NCBI GenBank assembly: GCA_020852965.1
Contig: JADYZV010000068.1
Span: 1-64,000, forward strand
DNA: 64,000 bases
Direction: 5' to 3'
Source of the DNA: Pirellulaceae bacterium
Lineage (GTDB): Bacteria; Planctomycetota; Planctomycetia; Pirellulales; Pirellulaceae
The notes under the pieces are model-generated. The model ran no database searches and was not told where the DNA came from. It was given only the letters and a program-made list of their open reading frames with translations. Of the stretch, positions 51,967 to 57,128 are shown one piece after another. The translations under genes were made by a program, and so were the position numbers. The first letter of the stretch is position 1. Each line of letters begins with the position of its first letter.

Positions 51967-52623
51967 ATGATATATATGGTCTTGATTTGGGGGGGAATGA
52001 TCCTAGTTGGCATTGGAGCCATCGCGTGGGGGATTCTCGCGGAAAAGAAGCGACGCGAGACCATCGCCCAAACGGTCGAAGAGCTGGGCTTGCGACTGGC
52101 CAGCGATTTGGACGAATCCGACCGCAACGTCTTTGACACTTGCCAGCTTGCTCAGCAAGGTCATTCACGGCAGGTTTCCAACGTTATCGTAGCCGATTCG
52201 GGAGAGCTGCGGATGGTCCTGTTCGACTATCTCTATAAAATCAGTAATGGCAAGAACAGCACGACGTATAAACAGAGTGTTGTGCTCGTACGCAGCCCGG
52301 CATTGCGCATGCCCGAGTTCACCATCTCCCCCGAAGGATTTTTTCATCGCATTTTGGAAATGTTTGGTGCCAAGGACATCGACTTTGAAGAGGATCGCGT
52401 GTTCTCGGATCTGTTTCTACTGAGGGGGACACGAGAGCAAGAGGTGCGCAGTTTCTTTAATGCTCAGCGCAGACAGCAGTTTGCCAAGCATGCCAACATA
52501 CACCTCGAAAGTAAAGCTAGCGCGTTCCTGTACTATCGACCACGCCACCGTTGGAATGCCGATGGAATCAAGCAAGCGATGGAACAGGCCTTCGAAGTGT
52601 ATCGGGTACTAGCGGCGGAGTAG
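51967..52623 (+). CDS. Membrane-anchored protein, unknown
   Basis: 218 residues, ATG 51967. One N-terminal helix (MIYMVLIWGGMILVGIGAIA, W) then a basic turn (EKKRRETI) and a soluble domain with regular alpha/beta pattern (VSNVIVADSGELRMVLFDYL, YKQSVVLVRSPALRMPEF, FSPEGFF-like TISPEGFFHRILEMFG). The tail YYRPRHRWNADGIKQAMEQA looks helical and amphipathic. No known domain. Six bases separate its stop from the radical SAM fusion gene, so the two are likely co-transcribed and may work together. Confidence 0.7.
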   Translation: MIYMVLIWGGMILVGIGAIAWGILAEKKRRETIAQTVEELGLRLASDLDESDRNVFDTCQLAQQGHSRQVSNVIVADSGELRMVLFDYLYKISNGKNSTTYKQSVVLVRSPALRMPEFTISPEGFFHRILEMFGAKDIDFEEDRVFSDLFLLRGTREQEVRSFFNAQRRQQFAKHANIHLESKASAFLYYRPRHRWNADGIKQAMEQAFEVYRVLAAE

Positions 52624-52629
52624 AATGTC

Positions 52630-55600
52630 ATGTCGAAACTAGAGTGCCTAATTCACACGCGATACTCGGATGGCGCGATGCCCGTCGGTTGGTGGGAGCC
52701 GAGTGCCAGCGCAGAGCGAATCGACTGCCTCCTTTGCCCGCGTCAATGTAGCCTCAAACCCGGCGATCGCGGCTTCTGCTTTGTTCGCGAAAATCGTGAC
52801 GGACAGATGGTCTTGTCGACTTATGGCAAGAGCACTGGATTTTGTATTGATCCAATTGAAAAGAAACCACTCAATCACTTCTATCCAGGCACGTCGGTGC
52901 TGAGCTTTGGTACGGCGGGTTGCAATCTGGGTTGCAAATTCTGTCAGAACTGGGATATCTCCAAATCGCGAGAAGTGGCCAGATTGAGCGCTCGAGCGGA
53001 ACCGGAGACTGTGGCACGCGCGGCGCTAGCCAACAACTGCCAGAGTGTGGCTTTCACCTACAACGACCCAGTGGTATGGGCCGAATATGCCATCGATACG
53101 GCCCAAGCCTGCCATGCTGTCGGGATAAAGACCGTAGCGGTCACTGCGGGCTACATTTCTCCAGTGGCTCGTCGAGATTTTTTTGCCGATATGGACGCTG
53201 CCAACGTCGATCTGAAGGCGTTTAGCGAAGAGTTCTATCGCAAGATTACCTATTCGCATCTTCAGCCTGTGCTCGATACGATCAAATTCCTCAAGCACGA
53301 AACCGACGTGTGGTTTGAAATAACGAATTTAGTGATCCCCCAAGCCAATGACAGTCTGGGGGAATTGCGTGAAATGTGCAATTGGATTGTCGAGACGGTT
53401 GGGGATCAGGTACCGGTACACTTTACCGCATTTCATCCAGACTTCCGTATGCTCGAGCACGGAGCCACCGATCCTCAGACGCTAGTGACAGCCTATGACA
53501 TCGCGCGCTCCGCAGGATTGCGCTATGTGTATGTGGGCAACGTTCACGATGCGGTGCGGCAGAGTACTTTTTGCCATCAATGTGGGCATTTGTTGATCGA
53601 GCGTGAGGGTTATCGACTGGGAAACTATACAATTGATAGCGAGGGTCGCTGCCAAAACTGCAGCGCACCAATCCCTGGGCGCTTTGCGGCACAGCCGGGT
53701 GACTGGGGCGCACGTCGGCAGCCAATACGTATCGAGCGGTACGCGCAGGAGGCTCACCTGCACGATTTAGGTGCGATTGGCGAAAGCTTGCCAGTCGCCA
53801 GTCAAGCTGCCCCAGGACAACAACCGATTAGTTCAATCAGCGCTGCGTCAACGCCCACAGTCATCGCAATGGAGAAAGTTACCGTGACCAGTACCAATTC
53901 CGCCTCGGCCACAACTCCGGCAGGTCCAATCACTACACCGCGTCCATTGAAGCTGGGGCGTTTGACGGCCGAGCAGCGCGGTTTGGTGCTGAAACTTGCC
54001 GCCGCTGGTATCTCGCAGACGGTTACCCAGCAAGCCATGAAGCTACCCGAAGAAGTGGTGGGAAGCTTTTCGCAGTCGATCGTGATGGGAGTCTTCGTAA
54101 CGCTCAAGCGTGGCGAAGTGTTGCGCGGTTGTTGTGGCGTATTGGGCAAGCCGATGGCGCTGGGGCCCGCGATCAGTTCGGCGGCCAAACGCACGGCTAC
54201 TGAGGATCAACGCTTCACGCCCATCTCTGCATGCGAGCTTCCCTACTTGACTATGGACGTGACTCTACTCGGTCCATTTCAGCGGCTTGAGTCACGCGGT
54301 AACAATCGCGCGGCAGAAGTCCAAGTGGGCAAGCATGGATTGATGATTCAGCAAGGGGACAAGAGCGGTTTGCTCCTACCTTCGGTGGCTACTGAGCGAG
54401 GTTGGGGAGCGGAGCGTTTTCTCCAGGCCGTATGCGCCAAAGCCGGTTTACCCTCAGCGGCATGGGAGAGCGACGATACCAGCCTGATGGTGTTTGAGGG
54501 CGAGACGTTCTCGACGCCATTGTCCGAAGAGCTTCCTTTGAATCTCCCCACGGCACGGCCACTGCCTCTCACCGCAGAGCAGTTGTCGGCCTATGCGCAA
54601 ATCGCTGGGCAAAACATCGTGGCGATGGTAACGGGAGGGACACCTTCCTACGTGATATCTCACCTACCCGACACCACGGTCAATGCCATCGTGCTTTCGC
54701 TCGAATGGCAGGCGGATCAGTCTGAGAATGATGCGCGGCAAGGGAGCGCGCTGCAGGTCTCCTTTCGCCCTGGAGTTTCACTGCAATCGACCTTGTTTCA
54801 AATGTGCCAGCAGGCGGCGCAGATGTTTTACGAGCAGCGTTTCAATGGCCAGCTCAACATCGGTTTGACGCTTGGCTTCGATCCGGCGATGCACGGCTAT
54901 GGCGCGCGCGCGGACTTGTCCGGTATCGAATCGACCGATCGAGCTCTGGTGATATCCGATGCGCGGCACTGCGGAATTGCCTTCGATCCTAAGAAGAGCC
55001 CCGATGAGCTGCGCGAGCTATTGCGGCGCAATTTGCCAATTGGCAGTCGCGATTCGACCGTGCATTCGGTACATGTGCTTTCGACAATGCCCAGCGTCAT
55101 TAGCATAGCTGCGCCTACGCCGGTCGACACCCAGGGAGTGCGTCCTGCAGCGGTGGCTGGGAAGTTCTACCCGGCCGAGGACGCCGCCCGGCGCGCGTTG
55201 GTCGACAAGCTGCTCGACGAAGAAGCCCCACAAACCTATCAGCCGTTGGCAGTGATGGTGCCGCACGCTGGGCTCAAGTACAGTGGCGGTGTGGCCAGCC
55301 AAGTTTGGCGCAGCATCGACGGACTCGACGGGCGCACGTTGCTGGTGGTTTCACCCAAGCATACCAAGGCTGGTGTCAACTGGAGTATATGCCCCTTCAA
55401 GACTTGGCAGCTCTCCGGCAAGGTCTCCTTCGAATCCGATCGCGAATTGGCCATGCAGCTCGCCGAGCGGATTGACGCGCTGCAGCTCGACGCCGCCGCG
55501 CATCAGCAAGAGCACGGCATCGAGGTCCAATTACCGATACTCGAGCGCGTAGCACCGCAGGCGAAGGTGATCGGACTGGCTCTGCATGGCGGTAGTTGGG

Positions 55601-55965
55601 ACGACATCAGTACCGCAGCCAAACAACTCGCCGAATTCCTACAAACGCTCGACGAGCCACCGTTGCTTGTGATCTCTAGCGATATGAATCACTATGCTAG
55701 CGATCGCGAGAATCGACGGCTCGACCGTTTGGCGCTCAATGCGATGGCCAGCGGCGACCCACAGCAGTTGATCGATGTTTGCCAAGAACATGAAATCAGC
55801 ATGTGCGGCCTAGTTCCCGCCGCTTTGGTCATGGAGACCTTGCGACAACAGGGGCACGCCCTAAAGGTCATCGAGGTCGACTATGCCACCAGCGGTGATG
55901 TGTCTGGAGATAGATCTCAGGTCGTCGGCTACGCCGGGTTGTTGCTCGTGTCAGACAATCAATAA
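52630..55965 (+). CDS. AmmeMemoRadiSam fusion: radical SAM + AMMECR1 + Memo
   Basis: 1111 residues in one chain. Radical SAM part: Cys-rich start (CLLCPRQCSLKPGDRGFC, 33-50), cluster motif CNLGCKFCQN with Cys98, 102 and 105, then a zinc ribbon CHQC...CQNC near 312-345. After a Thr/Ser/Pro linker, an AMMECR1 domain at about 445-640 (LRGCCGVLG in place of the usual LRGCIGT-type, and ERGWGAERFLQAVCAKAG). A further domain at about 646-830 (AYAQIAGQNIVAMVTGG, FQMCQQAAQMFYEQRF) resembles no family I know. A Memo domain at about 836-1108 is complete (VRPAAVAGKFYPAE, VPHAGLKYSG, SPKHTKAG, EHGIEVQLPIL, SSDMNHYAS). In other genomes these parts are usually separate genes of one conserved system of unknown function; three in one chain fix a 1:1:1 ratio. 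The family call is certain, the reaction is not. Confidence 0.92.
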   Translation: MSKLECLIHTRYSDGAMPVGWWEPSASAERIDCLLCPRQCSLKPGDRGFCFVRENRDGQMVLSTYGKSTGFCIDPIEKKPLNHFYPGTSVLSFGTAGCNLGCKFCQNWDISKSREVARLSARAEPETVARAALANNCQSVAFTYNDPVVWAEYAIDTAQACHAVGIKTVAVTAGYISPVARRDFFADMDAANVDLKAFSEEFYRKITYSHLQPVLDTIKFLKHETDVWFEITNLVIPQANDSLGELREMCNWIVETVGDQVPVHFTAFHPDFRMLEHGATDPQTLVTAYDIARSAGLRYVYVGNVHDAVRQSTFCHQCGHLLIEREGYRLGNYTIDSEGRCQNCSAPIPGRFAAQPGDWGARRQPIRIERYAQEAHLHDLGAIGESLPVASQAAPGQQPISSISAASTPTVIAMEKVTVTSTNSASATTPAGPITTPRPLKLGRLTAEQRGLVLKLAAAGISQTVTQQAMKLPEEVVGSFSQSIVMGVFVTLKRGEVLRGCCGVLGKPMALGPAISSAAKRTATEDQRFTPISACELPYLTMDVTLLGPFQRLESRGNNRAAEVQVGKHGLMIQQGDKSGLLLPSVATERGWGAERFLQAVCAKAGLPSAAWESDDTSLMVFEGETFSTPLSEELPLNLPTARPLPLTAEQLSAYAQIAGQNIVAMVTGGTPSYVISHLPDTTVNAIVLSLEWQADQSENDARQGSALQVSFRPGVSLQSTLFQMCQQAAQMFYEQRFNGQLNIGLTLGFDPAMHGYGARADLSGIESTDRALVISDARHCGIAFDPKKSPDELRELLRRNLPIGSRDSTVHSVHVLSTMPSVISIAAPTPVDTQGVRPAAVAGKFYPAEDAARRALVDKLLDEEAPQTYQPLAVMVPHAGLKYSGGVASQVWRSIDGLDGRTLLVVSPKHTKAGVNWSICPFKTWQLSGKVSFESDRELAMQLAERIDALQLDAAAHQQEHGIEVQLPILERVAPQAKVIGLALHGGSWDDISTAAKQLAEFLQTLDEPPLLVISSDMNHYASDRENRRLDRLALNAMASGDPQQLIDVCQEHEISMCGLVPAALVMETLRQQGHALKVIEVDYATSGDVSGDRSQVVGYAGLLLVSDNQ

Positions 55966-56225: not shown

Positions 56226-57128
56226 ATGCGGAACCCCACCAATACCGCGAGCAAAGCGAGCAATATAGGGTTATTGCGAGTCGGCTTGGGTCTAGTCTGC
56301 TTGATGGTCTTGACGCCAGCCGCTTGGGCCCAGCGGGCTCGGGGAGTCGACGCTTCCTTTTGGCAAGGGAATATGGACTGGAGCAAAACGTATGACGCTG
56401 GCGCCCGTTTCGCATTTGTCCGCTCGTCACGTGGTTTGACTTATGACGATACGCTTTTTGTGCAAAACATGACCACCATCTCAAATATGGCTTCAGCCGG
56501 TAAGACCATCTACGCTGGGGCCTATCACTACGGAATTCCAGGCGACGCGCTGACATCCGGCTCAACCAGCGCGGCTATCGAGGCCCATGCCCGGGCCGAA
56601 GCAAACCACTTCGTCACTACGGCCGGTGATTACATGACCGCCGGCTGGTTGCGCCCCGTTTTGGATTTAGAAAATGGCGCCACGGTTGGGAATACTGCAG
56701 TGCGGCTCCTATCCAATTCGCAGTTGTCTTCTTGGGCGAACACGTTTATGAATGAAGTCGAAGCGCGAGTCGGTGTCGAGCCGTTGGTCTACATGAATAC
56801 CAACTACGCCACGAACTACATTGACAATAGTTTAGCGGATCGCGACTTGTGGATCGCCAACTACAATTCGGGCGGTGTCCACGGCGATCCTTTGACCACC
56901 GGCAGCCCACCGACGGGAAACGCTGGCGCTTGGTCGTTCTGGCAGTACACTAGCCTAGGATCCAGCGAATTGTATGGTATCCCCGGTAACACCATCGATT
57001 TGAACGTGGCCAATGGCGACATCAACTTCGTACGAGGATTTGTCATCCCGTCGAGTGTCCCCGAGCCGGGTGGCGCGTTGGTCATTTGCGGTGCCAGCTT
57101 GTTGGCTCTCTCTCGCCGCCGCCGCTGA
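56226..57128 (+). CDS. Secreted GH25 lysozyme-like protein with PEP-CTERM tail
   Basis: 300 residues; ATG 56226 behind GGAAGG. Signal peptide about 14-36 (IGLLRVGLGLVCLMVLTPAA). The GH25 domain starts RGVDASFWQGNMDWSKTYDA (first catalytic Asp in GVDAS) and includes AYHYGIPGD, LRPVLDLENG (Asp and Glu of the active site) and LWIANYNSGG. The end is a PEP-CTERM sorting signal: VPEPGGALVICGASLLALS followed by RRRR. Such tails are recognised by an exosortase and the protein is then tied to the envelope or exopolysaccharide. The domain would cut beta-1,4 links in peptidoglycan or a related polymer. The truncated FemAB-like gene in the polysaccharide locus belongs to the same sorting context. Confidence 0.9.
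   Translation: MRNPTNTASKASNIGLLRVGLGLVCLMVLTPAAWAQRARGVDASFWQGNMDWSKTYDAGARFAFVRSSRGLTYDDTLFVQNMTTISNMASAGKTIYAGAYHYGIPGDALTSGSTSAAIEAHARAEANHFVTTAGDYMTAGWLRPVLDLENGATVGNTAVRLLSNSQLSSWANTFMNEVEARVGVEPLVYMNTNYATNYIDNSLADRDLWIANYNSGGVHGDPLTTGSPPTGNAGAWSFWQYTSLGSSELYGIPGNTIDLNVANGDINFVRGFVIPSSVPEPGGALVICGASLLALSRRRR

Follow-up and report, generated by a model that had tools for sequence, protein, structure and literature searches.

A planctomycete gene joining radical SAM, AMMECR1 and Memo components in one chain, with an additional domain of predicted AMMECR1-like fold

A fused gene with all three AmmeMemoRadiSam components

The window analysed here is a 64,000-nucleotide stretch of the genome of a Pirellulaceae bacterium (assembly GCA_020852965.1, contig JADYZV010000068.1, positions 1 to 64,000), in which an open reading frame (ORF) of 1111 amino acids carries, one after the other, a radical S-adenosylmethionine (SAM) domain, an AMMECR1 domain, a further domain that we call X, and a Memo domain. 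The three named domains are the components of the AmmeMemoRadiSam system (TIGR04335, TIGR04336 and TIGR04337), for which we know of no defined joint reaction. The gene and its domains are laid out as follows.

52630 to 55965, forward strand: whole fused gene, 1111 amino acids, radical SAM, AMMECR1, X and Memo (uninterrupted ORF, Pfam, NCBIfam)
52702 to 53733, forward strand: AmmeMemoSam radical SAM domain, residues 25-368 (TIGR04337)
53755 to 53946, forward strand: linker from radical SAM to AMMECR1, residues 376-439, of low confidence (predicted local distance difference test score, pLDDT, below 50 in the full-length model)
53992 to 54510, forward strand: AMMECR1 domain, residues 455-627 (PF01871, TIGR04335; 453-627 by NCBIfam)
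54568 to 55113, forward strand: domain X, residues about 647-828, a predicted diverged AMMECR1-fold domain without RGCxG (profile comparison, predicted model)
55141 to 55944, forward strand: Memo domain, residues 838-1105 (TIGR04336, PF01875)

The ORF is open throughout, and the opposite-strand ORFs listed inside it reach at most 130 amino acids. All three components score above their curated NCBIfam cut-offs: the radical SAM component with 584.6 bits against 220 (TIGR04337), protein A or AMMECR1 with 129.2 bits against 99 (TIGR04335), and protein B or Memo with 228.2 bits against 26 (TIGR04336). In Pfam, the AMMECR1 domain (PF01871) scores 138.9 bits and the Memo domain (PF01875) 164.2 bits, with a gap between them, residues 628-839, that is left without assignment. 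Read from the sequence, it is virtually certain that the complete AmmeMemoRadiSam architecture lies on one chain. This bears out both the 1111-residue ORF and the single polypeptide described in a first-pass annotation of the window, and, since fusions in the same order occur in other genomes, chance or an assembly error is unlikely. Compared with the AmmeMemoRadiSam system as separate genes, the window has one chain, an extra domain that appears AMMECR1-like, and R[GSA]CCG where RGCIG would be expected. The window's own genome codes for Memo once, in the fusion, and for AMMECR1 twice, in the fusion and in a weaker stand-alone copy. This stand-alone homologue (L129:5111-5725, C76; 204 amino acids, 58 bits) has no RGC motif.

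The radical SAM and Memo domains contain conserved residues that are candidates for binding metal, and the AMMECR1 domain contains a modified motif:

52726 to 52779, forward strand: N-terminal cysteines C33, C36, C40 and C50, a candidate extra metal site
52921 to 52944, forward strand: CX3CX2C, cysteines C98, C102 and C105
53572 to 53661, forward strand: C-terminal cysteines C315, C318, C341 and C344, a candidate second metal site
54124 to 54138, forward strand: R499-G500-C501-C502-G503, two adjacent cysteines in place of the canonical C-I
55264 to 55266, forward strand: H879, aligned with human MEMO1 metal ligand H49
55360 to 55362, forward strand: H911, aligned with human MEMO1 metal ligand H81
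55804 to 55806, forward strand: C1059, aligned with human MEMO1 metal ligand C244

The eleven cysteines of the radical SAM domain are present in all 46 domains aligned; C98, C102 and C105 are presumably the ligands of the SAM-binding 4Fe-4S cluster that the family leads one to expect. The Memo domain aligns over its length with human MEMO1 (7kq8 and 3bcz, which are entries of MEMO1 alone), with about 35 bits by sequence, and it retains all three ligand residues. In the human protein these residues bind iron or copper, as stated in a portion of PMC11081632 that also reports no dioxygenase activity with the substrates tried. Across X-bearing Memo domains, H879 and H911 are kept in 68/68 and C1059 in 67/68, the exception being L034, in which a stop interrupts the domain (the 68 remain after 12 duplicate loci were dropped, with L131 still doubling L075).

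In the AMMECR1 domain, the motif that we take to be canonically RGCIG reads RGCCG at residues 499-503, as the first-pass annotation had noted. The additional cysteine is widespread: LR[GSA]CCG was found in 64 of the 66 readable AMMECR1 domains belonging to distinct X proteins (the motif of L107 could not be read), the exceptions being LRGCRG in L043 and LRSCMG in L078. All five X-less AMMECR1 domains of the first comparison have LRGCIG and none has CCG, while other X-less proteins have LRGCRG (L128), LRACRG (L122) or LRSCCG (L123, from genome G100). RGCIG is thus less than the normally invariant motif it had been called, and we have not taken it as defining, since there is no curated criterion for it and L122 and L128 show that it is not universal in X-less proteins. 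On the sequences compared, the second cysteine is a mark of the clade and not of X itself, because the X-less L123, which is nested in the X clade, has CCG, and because X-bearing exceptions exist.

The domain between AMMECR1 and Memo

The segment between AMMECR1 and Memo had been described as matching none of the three components, and for ordinary sequence searches this holds: on its own, X gave no Pfam family up to an expectation value (E) of 10, and so no match to PF01871, and no Protein Data Bank (PDB) match by sequence at E 0.1. It does not hold for fold or for profile-profile comparison, both of which point to AMMECR1. A structure prediction, which the first-pass annotation had proposed, yielded an AlphaFold model built from 21 sequences with pLDDT 89 and a predicted template modelling score (pTM) of 0.85. 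When this model was compared with 350,542 PDB chains using Foldseek, only three matches fell below E 0.001, namely 1zq7_A, 1vaj and 1zq7_B (E 9.5e-5 to 1.9e-4, probability 1.00, template modelling score 0.48-0.55); the fourth match had a probability of 0.12. The AMMECR1 domain of the fusion matches the 1zq7 and 1vaj entries by sequence, and 1VAJ is named as a member of the AMMECR1 family in a portion of PMC6393860. PH0010 (1vaj) and MM0484 (1zq7) are therefore kin of the AMMECR1 domain in sequence and of X in predicted fold, but X differs from them in having 12-14% identity in the fold alignment, no RGCxG, and conserved residues of its own (N662, R713, Q719 and H755).

Profile comparison led to the same family. 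With hhalign, an X profile of 29 sequences aligned colinearly with AMMECR1 of the same proteins (probability 69.6, E 4.2e-5, 167 columns), and none of 200 column-shuffled profiles reached 36.9, the best shuffle giving 25.2 and the reversed profile 12.3. With the untrimmed X alignment the probability was 0.5 for Memo and 0.06 for radical SAM, which rules out X as a copy of either. In the full-length model, AMMECR1 (447-630) and X (649-818) have in common the order helix, two strands, helix, strand, two strands, helix, strand; AMMECR1 has additional short helices and X has one more short strand at its end. By profile and by element order alike, the place of RGCCG is taken in X by SALQV (S706-V710), so that X has no RGCxG.

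Set against an AMMECR1-like X are the HMMER profiles of X and AMMECR1, which miss each other (best E 0.94), the hhalign probability of about 70%, which is not high taken alone, and the Foldseek root-mean-square deviations of 6.4-7.7. Together with the empty Pfam and PDB searches, the HMMER result would suit a new component without kinship to AMMECR1, as the first-pass annotation had envisaged, but the Foldseek matches, the shuffle-controlled profile comparison and the element order all indicate AMMECR1, and we regard the idea of an unrelated component as largely refuted and very improbable. In our judgement X very probably has the AMMECR1 fold, an assignment made on the predicted model. Given the Foldseek matches and a colinear profile alignment that beats its shuffles, X is, as modelled, a second, diverged AMMECR1-fold domain without RGCxG and with near-invariant residues of its own, N662, R713, Q719 and H755 among them, and most simply arose by internal duplication. 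Nor is it the plain second copy of AMMECR1 that had been contemplated as an alternative outcome: it lacks RGCxG and is missed by ordinary sequence searches. Since the Pfam match and the motif both fail, we have kept X out of the AMMECR1 family itself.

Two stretches of X stand out:

54766 to 54786, forward strand: R713-P-G-V-S-L-Q719
54880 to 54897, forward strand: D751-P-A-M-H755-G756

N662 is invariant among 29 X sequences whose choice did not depend on a motif, where G669, T671, P672, Y674, D681, R713, Q719, L722, H755, G756, G765 and L794 are kept in at least 90%. In alignments A4 and A5 the rows besides the window were retrieved with the pattern LxDP[AVE]MHGT, so that the invariance of D751, P752 and M754 there is partly due to selection. 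Conservation across A4 does not extend to the cysteines that X has in the window, which rules out a cysteine-bound metal domain. X diverges more than the other domains; for example, the window and L053 are 30% identical in X and 67% identical in radical SAM.

Distribution and possible role of the fusion

A survey of other planctomycete fusions, also suggested by the first-pass annotation, was made in 60 relatives, in a class sample of 198 genomes (the window's class) and in a phylum sample of 392 genomes. Some match to the protein was found in 33 of the 60 relatives, and these yielded 29 ORFs containing AMMECR1, X and Memo. X was present in 34/198 genomes of the class sample and in 13/392 of the phylum sample, all 13 of them in the window's class (the sampled genomes outside the class were not counted). 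One peptide pattern, scanned against named genomes, matched at 20 loci, of which 18 bear planctomycete names, one is from Candidatus Anammoximicrobium, which we take to be a planctomycete, and one (L108) is from Candidatus Nealsonbacteria; L108 clusters with planctomycete sequences in the tree described below and is probably misnamed.

The 80 X-bearing ORFs (79 with duplicates, plus L130) were reduced by X sequence to 67 distinct proteins, of which 56 have radical SAM in the same ORF, 8 do not, and 3 (L044, L105 and L107) were left undecided as they run off the contig end; the sequence upstream of L044 showed no radical SAM. Duplicates counted, 79 of the 80 ORFs have the order AMMECR1, X, Memo, the remaining one ending before Memo, and X lies between AMMECR1 and Memo in 79/79 ORFs in which all three occur. 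This retrieval would have overlooked X-less relatives, because the X-bearing ORFs were mostly retrieved with the whole protein or with X; the X-less L123 was retrieved through its radical SAM.

In a FastTree phylogeny of AMMECR1 and Memo (74 rows, rooted on the X-less L065), the X-bearing proteins cluster together (support 0.945) with L123 of G100 nested inside, and the fusion of genome G063 (L122) is the sister of this X clade (0.983 for the whole). This grouping fits a single origin of the fusion, followed by splitting and loss. X-less AmmeMemoRadiSam loci of the same class (L061, L063, L064, L065, L066 and L128) resemble the fusion in having AMMECR1 and Memo neighbouring or fused, with three neighbouring genes in L128; they differ in lacking X, in having LRGCIG (five loci) or LRGCRG (L128), and in lying outside the X clade of the tree as rooted. 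The G063 fusion itself (L122:2673-5972) is of similar length and order, with a middle segment of about 190 residues that has no convincing match to X or AMMECR1 (hhalign probability 1.0 to AMMECR1 and 1.8 to X); in a one-sequence search, a C-terminal stretch of this segment aligned at E 0.004 with the AMMECR1 domain of the same protein. No description of the fusion or of X was found in literature titles and the beginnings of abstracts, and an earlier description of planctomycete fusions may exist.

What such a protein might do can be proposed in outline. Burroughs and colleagues reportedly linked Memo, in 2019 in J Biol Chem, to nucleotide-base and isoprenoid modification. We consider it just on the probable side that the fusion is a single-chain AmmeMemoRadiSam enzyme with a scaffold of AMMECR1 and the AMMECR1-like X. 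The two would form a pseudo-symmetric pair, in which AMMECR1 retains reactive cysteines and X serves to hold either the substrate or Memo; the radical SAM domain, on its tether, would make the 5'-deoxyadenosyl radical and act on a substrate held at AMMECR1/X, and Memo would carry out a metal-dependent redox step. That X serves as a scaffold or binding domain rather than as a catalyst is reasonably probable, while the chances that radical SAM and Memo share the same substrate seem to us even. The AMMECR1/X pair is a guess, since the full-length model leaves the packing undefined.

Several observations tell against a single-chain enzyme of this kind. The full-length model has a pTM of 0.50 and does not define how the domains pack, and we know of no activity for the AmmeMemoRadiSam system. 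In G100, a CCG AMMECR1 is joined to Memo without X. In genome G009, 99% complete on a single contig, TIGR04337 found nothing at E 1e-10, although the AMMECR1-X-Memo there (L042:5492-7609) is intact and keeps CCG and the metal-ligand residues; AMMECR1-X-Memo can therefore persist without radical SAM. In G002 (84% complete) and G010 the sole TIGR04337 match is on a different contig from AMMECR1-X-Memo. The radical SAM domain fused in G135 (L131:2318-5584) is of another type, 34% identical to that of the window but closer to radical SAM proteins of G163 (62%) and G064 (57%), whose genes have no AMMECR1 or Memo match within the 9 kb read; G135, where AMMECR1-X-Memo is ordinary, thus has by sequence an apparent in-frame swap of the radical SAM domain. 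G185 and G222, of the same family as G135, likewise score low with TIGR04337, at 276 and 288 bits, where the other fusions reach about 560-600. In G052 radical SAM is a separate neighbouring gene, and in G014 it is in pieces with stops, which may reflect decay or misassembly. In favour of the single-chain enzyme, 34/34 X genomes of the class sample have a TIGR04337 match (compared by eye); 15 more genomes there have such a match without one to X.

Because radical SAM has been lost (G009), broken (G014) or exchanged (G135), AMMECR1-X-Memo looks like the constant module. The single polypeptide had been put forward as strong support for a physical complex, and for AMMECR1-X-Memo a complex is indeed implied; it is less so for radical SAM, given the low-confidence linker, the absence of a match in G009 and the different type in G135. 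The same pattern, in which AMMECR1-X-Memo is constant and radical SAM can be of another type, a separate gene (G052) or not found, would suit an activase, that is, a radical SAM domain that modifies or activates AMMECR1-X-Memo itself, for instance at the Cys-Cys pair, instead of a small substrate. Outside its own family the best matches of the radical SAM domain are to pyruvate formate-lyase activase and other glycyl-radical activases, which may also favour this explanation, but in G009 the supposed target is present and no activase can be recognised, and we think the explanation unlikely. Somewhat more doubtful is that X is a relic of the internal AMMECR1 duplication, a mere spacer with no role of its own. 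Its loss of RGCxG, its marked divergence, its absence from G100 and the lack of a recognisable relation between X and the G063 middle segment could all be read in this way; the invariance of N662 and the conservation, at 90% or above in the same 29 sequences, of G669, T671, P672, Y674, D681, R713, Q719, H755 and G756 argue otherwise, as does the presence of X in every ORF of its kind, though X-less relatives would mostly have escaped retrieval.

A bolder possibility, which we hold to be improbable, is that in oxygen-respiring planctomycetes AMMECR1-X-Memo is a metal-dependent enzyme in its own right, working with two cysteines, with a composite AMMECR1/X pocket and an interchangeable, dispensable radical SAM domain that some relatives have lost and others have in a different type; if so, the fusion would reveal the core part of AmmeMemoRadiSam. 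The question of what Memo, AMMECR1 and their radical SAM partner do extends to human proteins, and a single gene with all parts in fixed stoichiometry would allow them to be produced and assayed together on one chain. AMMECR1-X-Memo is suggested as the constant core by natural variants in which radical SAM is present, encoded separately, different in type or missing, and the Cys-Cys motif and X supply concrete residues for testing.

Two further radical SAM genes were noted. In G046, a 1139-residue open frame (L060:2412-5831) ends in a radical SAM domain and matches nothing in Pfam (E 0.01) over its first 770 residues, which may be a chance extension. The G163 radical SAM gene adjoins an epoxyqueuosine reductase-like gene (L125:5260-6435; by eye).

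Oxygen and the genomic neighbourhood

In a portion of PMC13386939, a table has AMMECR1 as an anaerobe marker with the values 3.38 and 50.66, which the pattern of the rows suggests are percentages of aerobic and anaerobic genomes. A haem-copper oxidase match was found in 198/198 genomes of the class sample; the hosts of the fusion are therefore probably able to respire oxygen, and oxygen cannot serve as a discriminator within the class. It would be a guess to see the fusion or X as an adaptation to oxygen.

Genes upstream of the fusion were compared across 44 loci, several of them incomplete:

51967 to 52623, forward strand: upstream gene of 218 amino acids, its N-terminal part having a hydrophobic stretch as judged by eye; no general partner
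DUF3467 loci: L053 (9093 to 9740, reverse strand), L049, L104, L101, L109, L106, L113, L038, L040, L058 and L110

The first-pass annotation had raised the question of whether the upstream membrane gene always accompanies the fusion. Its relatives occur at only 5/44 loci, the window included, all in the window's genus and separated from the fusion or AMMECR1-X-Memo gene by 7 to 1810 bases, which rules it out as a general partner. It directly precedes an unbroken fusion in the window only; in G014 it lies before the broken radical SAM pieces, and in G009 the AMMECR1-X-Memo gene follows 227 bases after it.

At 11/44 loci a DUF3467-domain protein is encoded directly upstream on the same strand, and the window's upstream gene was found at none of these 11. 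Pfam searches of four of the 11 proteins gave two DUF3467 stretches each, and with hhalign no relation was detected between the upstream membrane gene and the double-DUF3467 protein (probability 0.09). With DUF3467 present in 187/198 class genomes, it is ruled out as a specific marker. A pseudouridine synthase-like gene (by eye) lies upstream on the other strand at 7/44 loci, all in the window's genus. Downstream of the fusion in the window, positions 56226-57128 (forward strand) encode a Glycosyl hydrolase family 25 protein (Pfam), the C-terminal tail of which is, by eye, like what we take to be a PEP-CTERM sorting signal.

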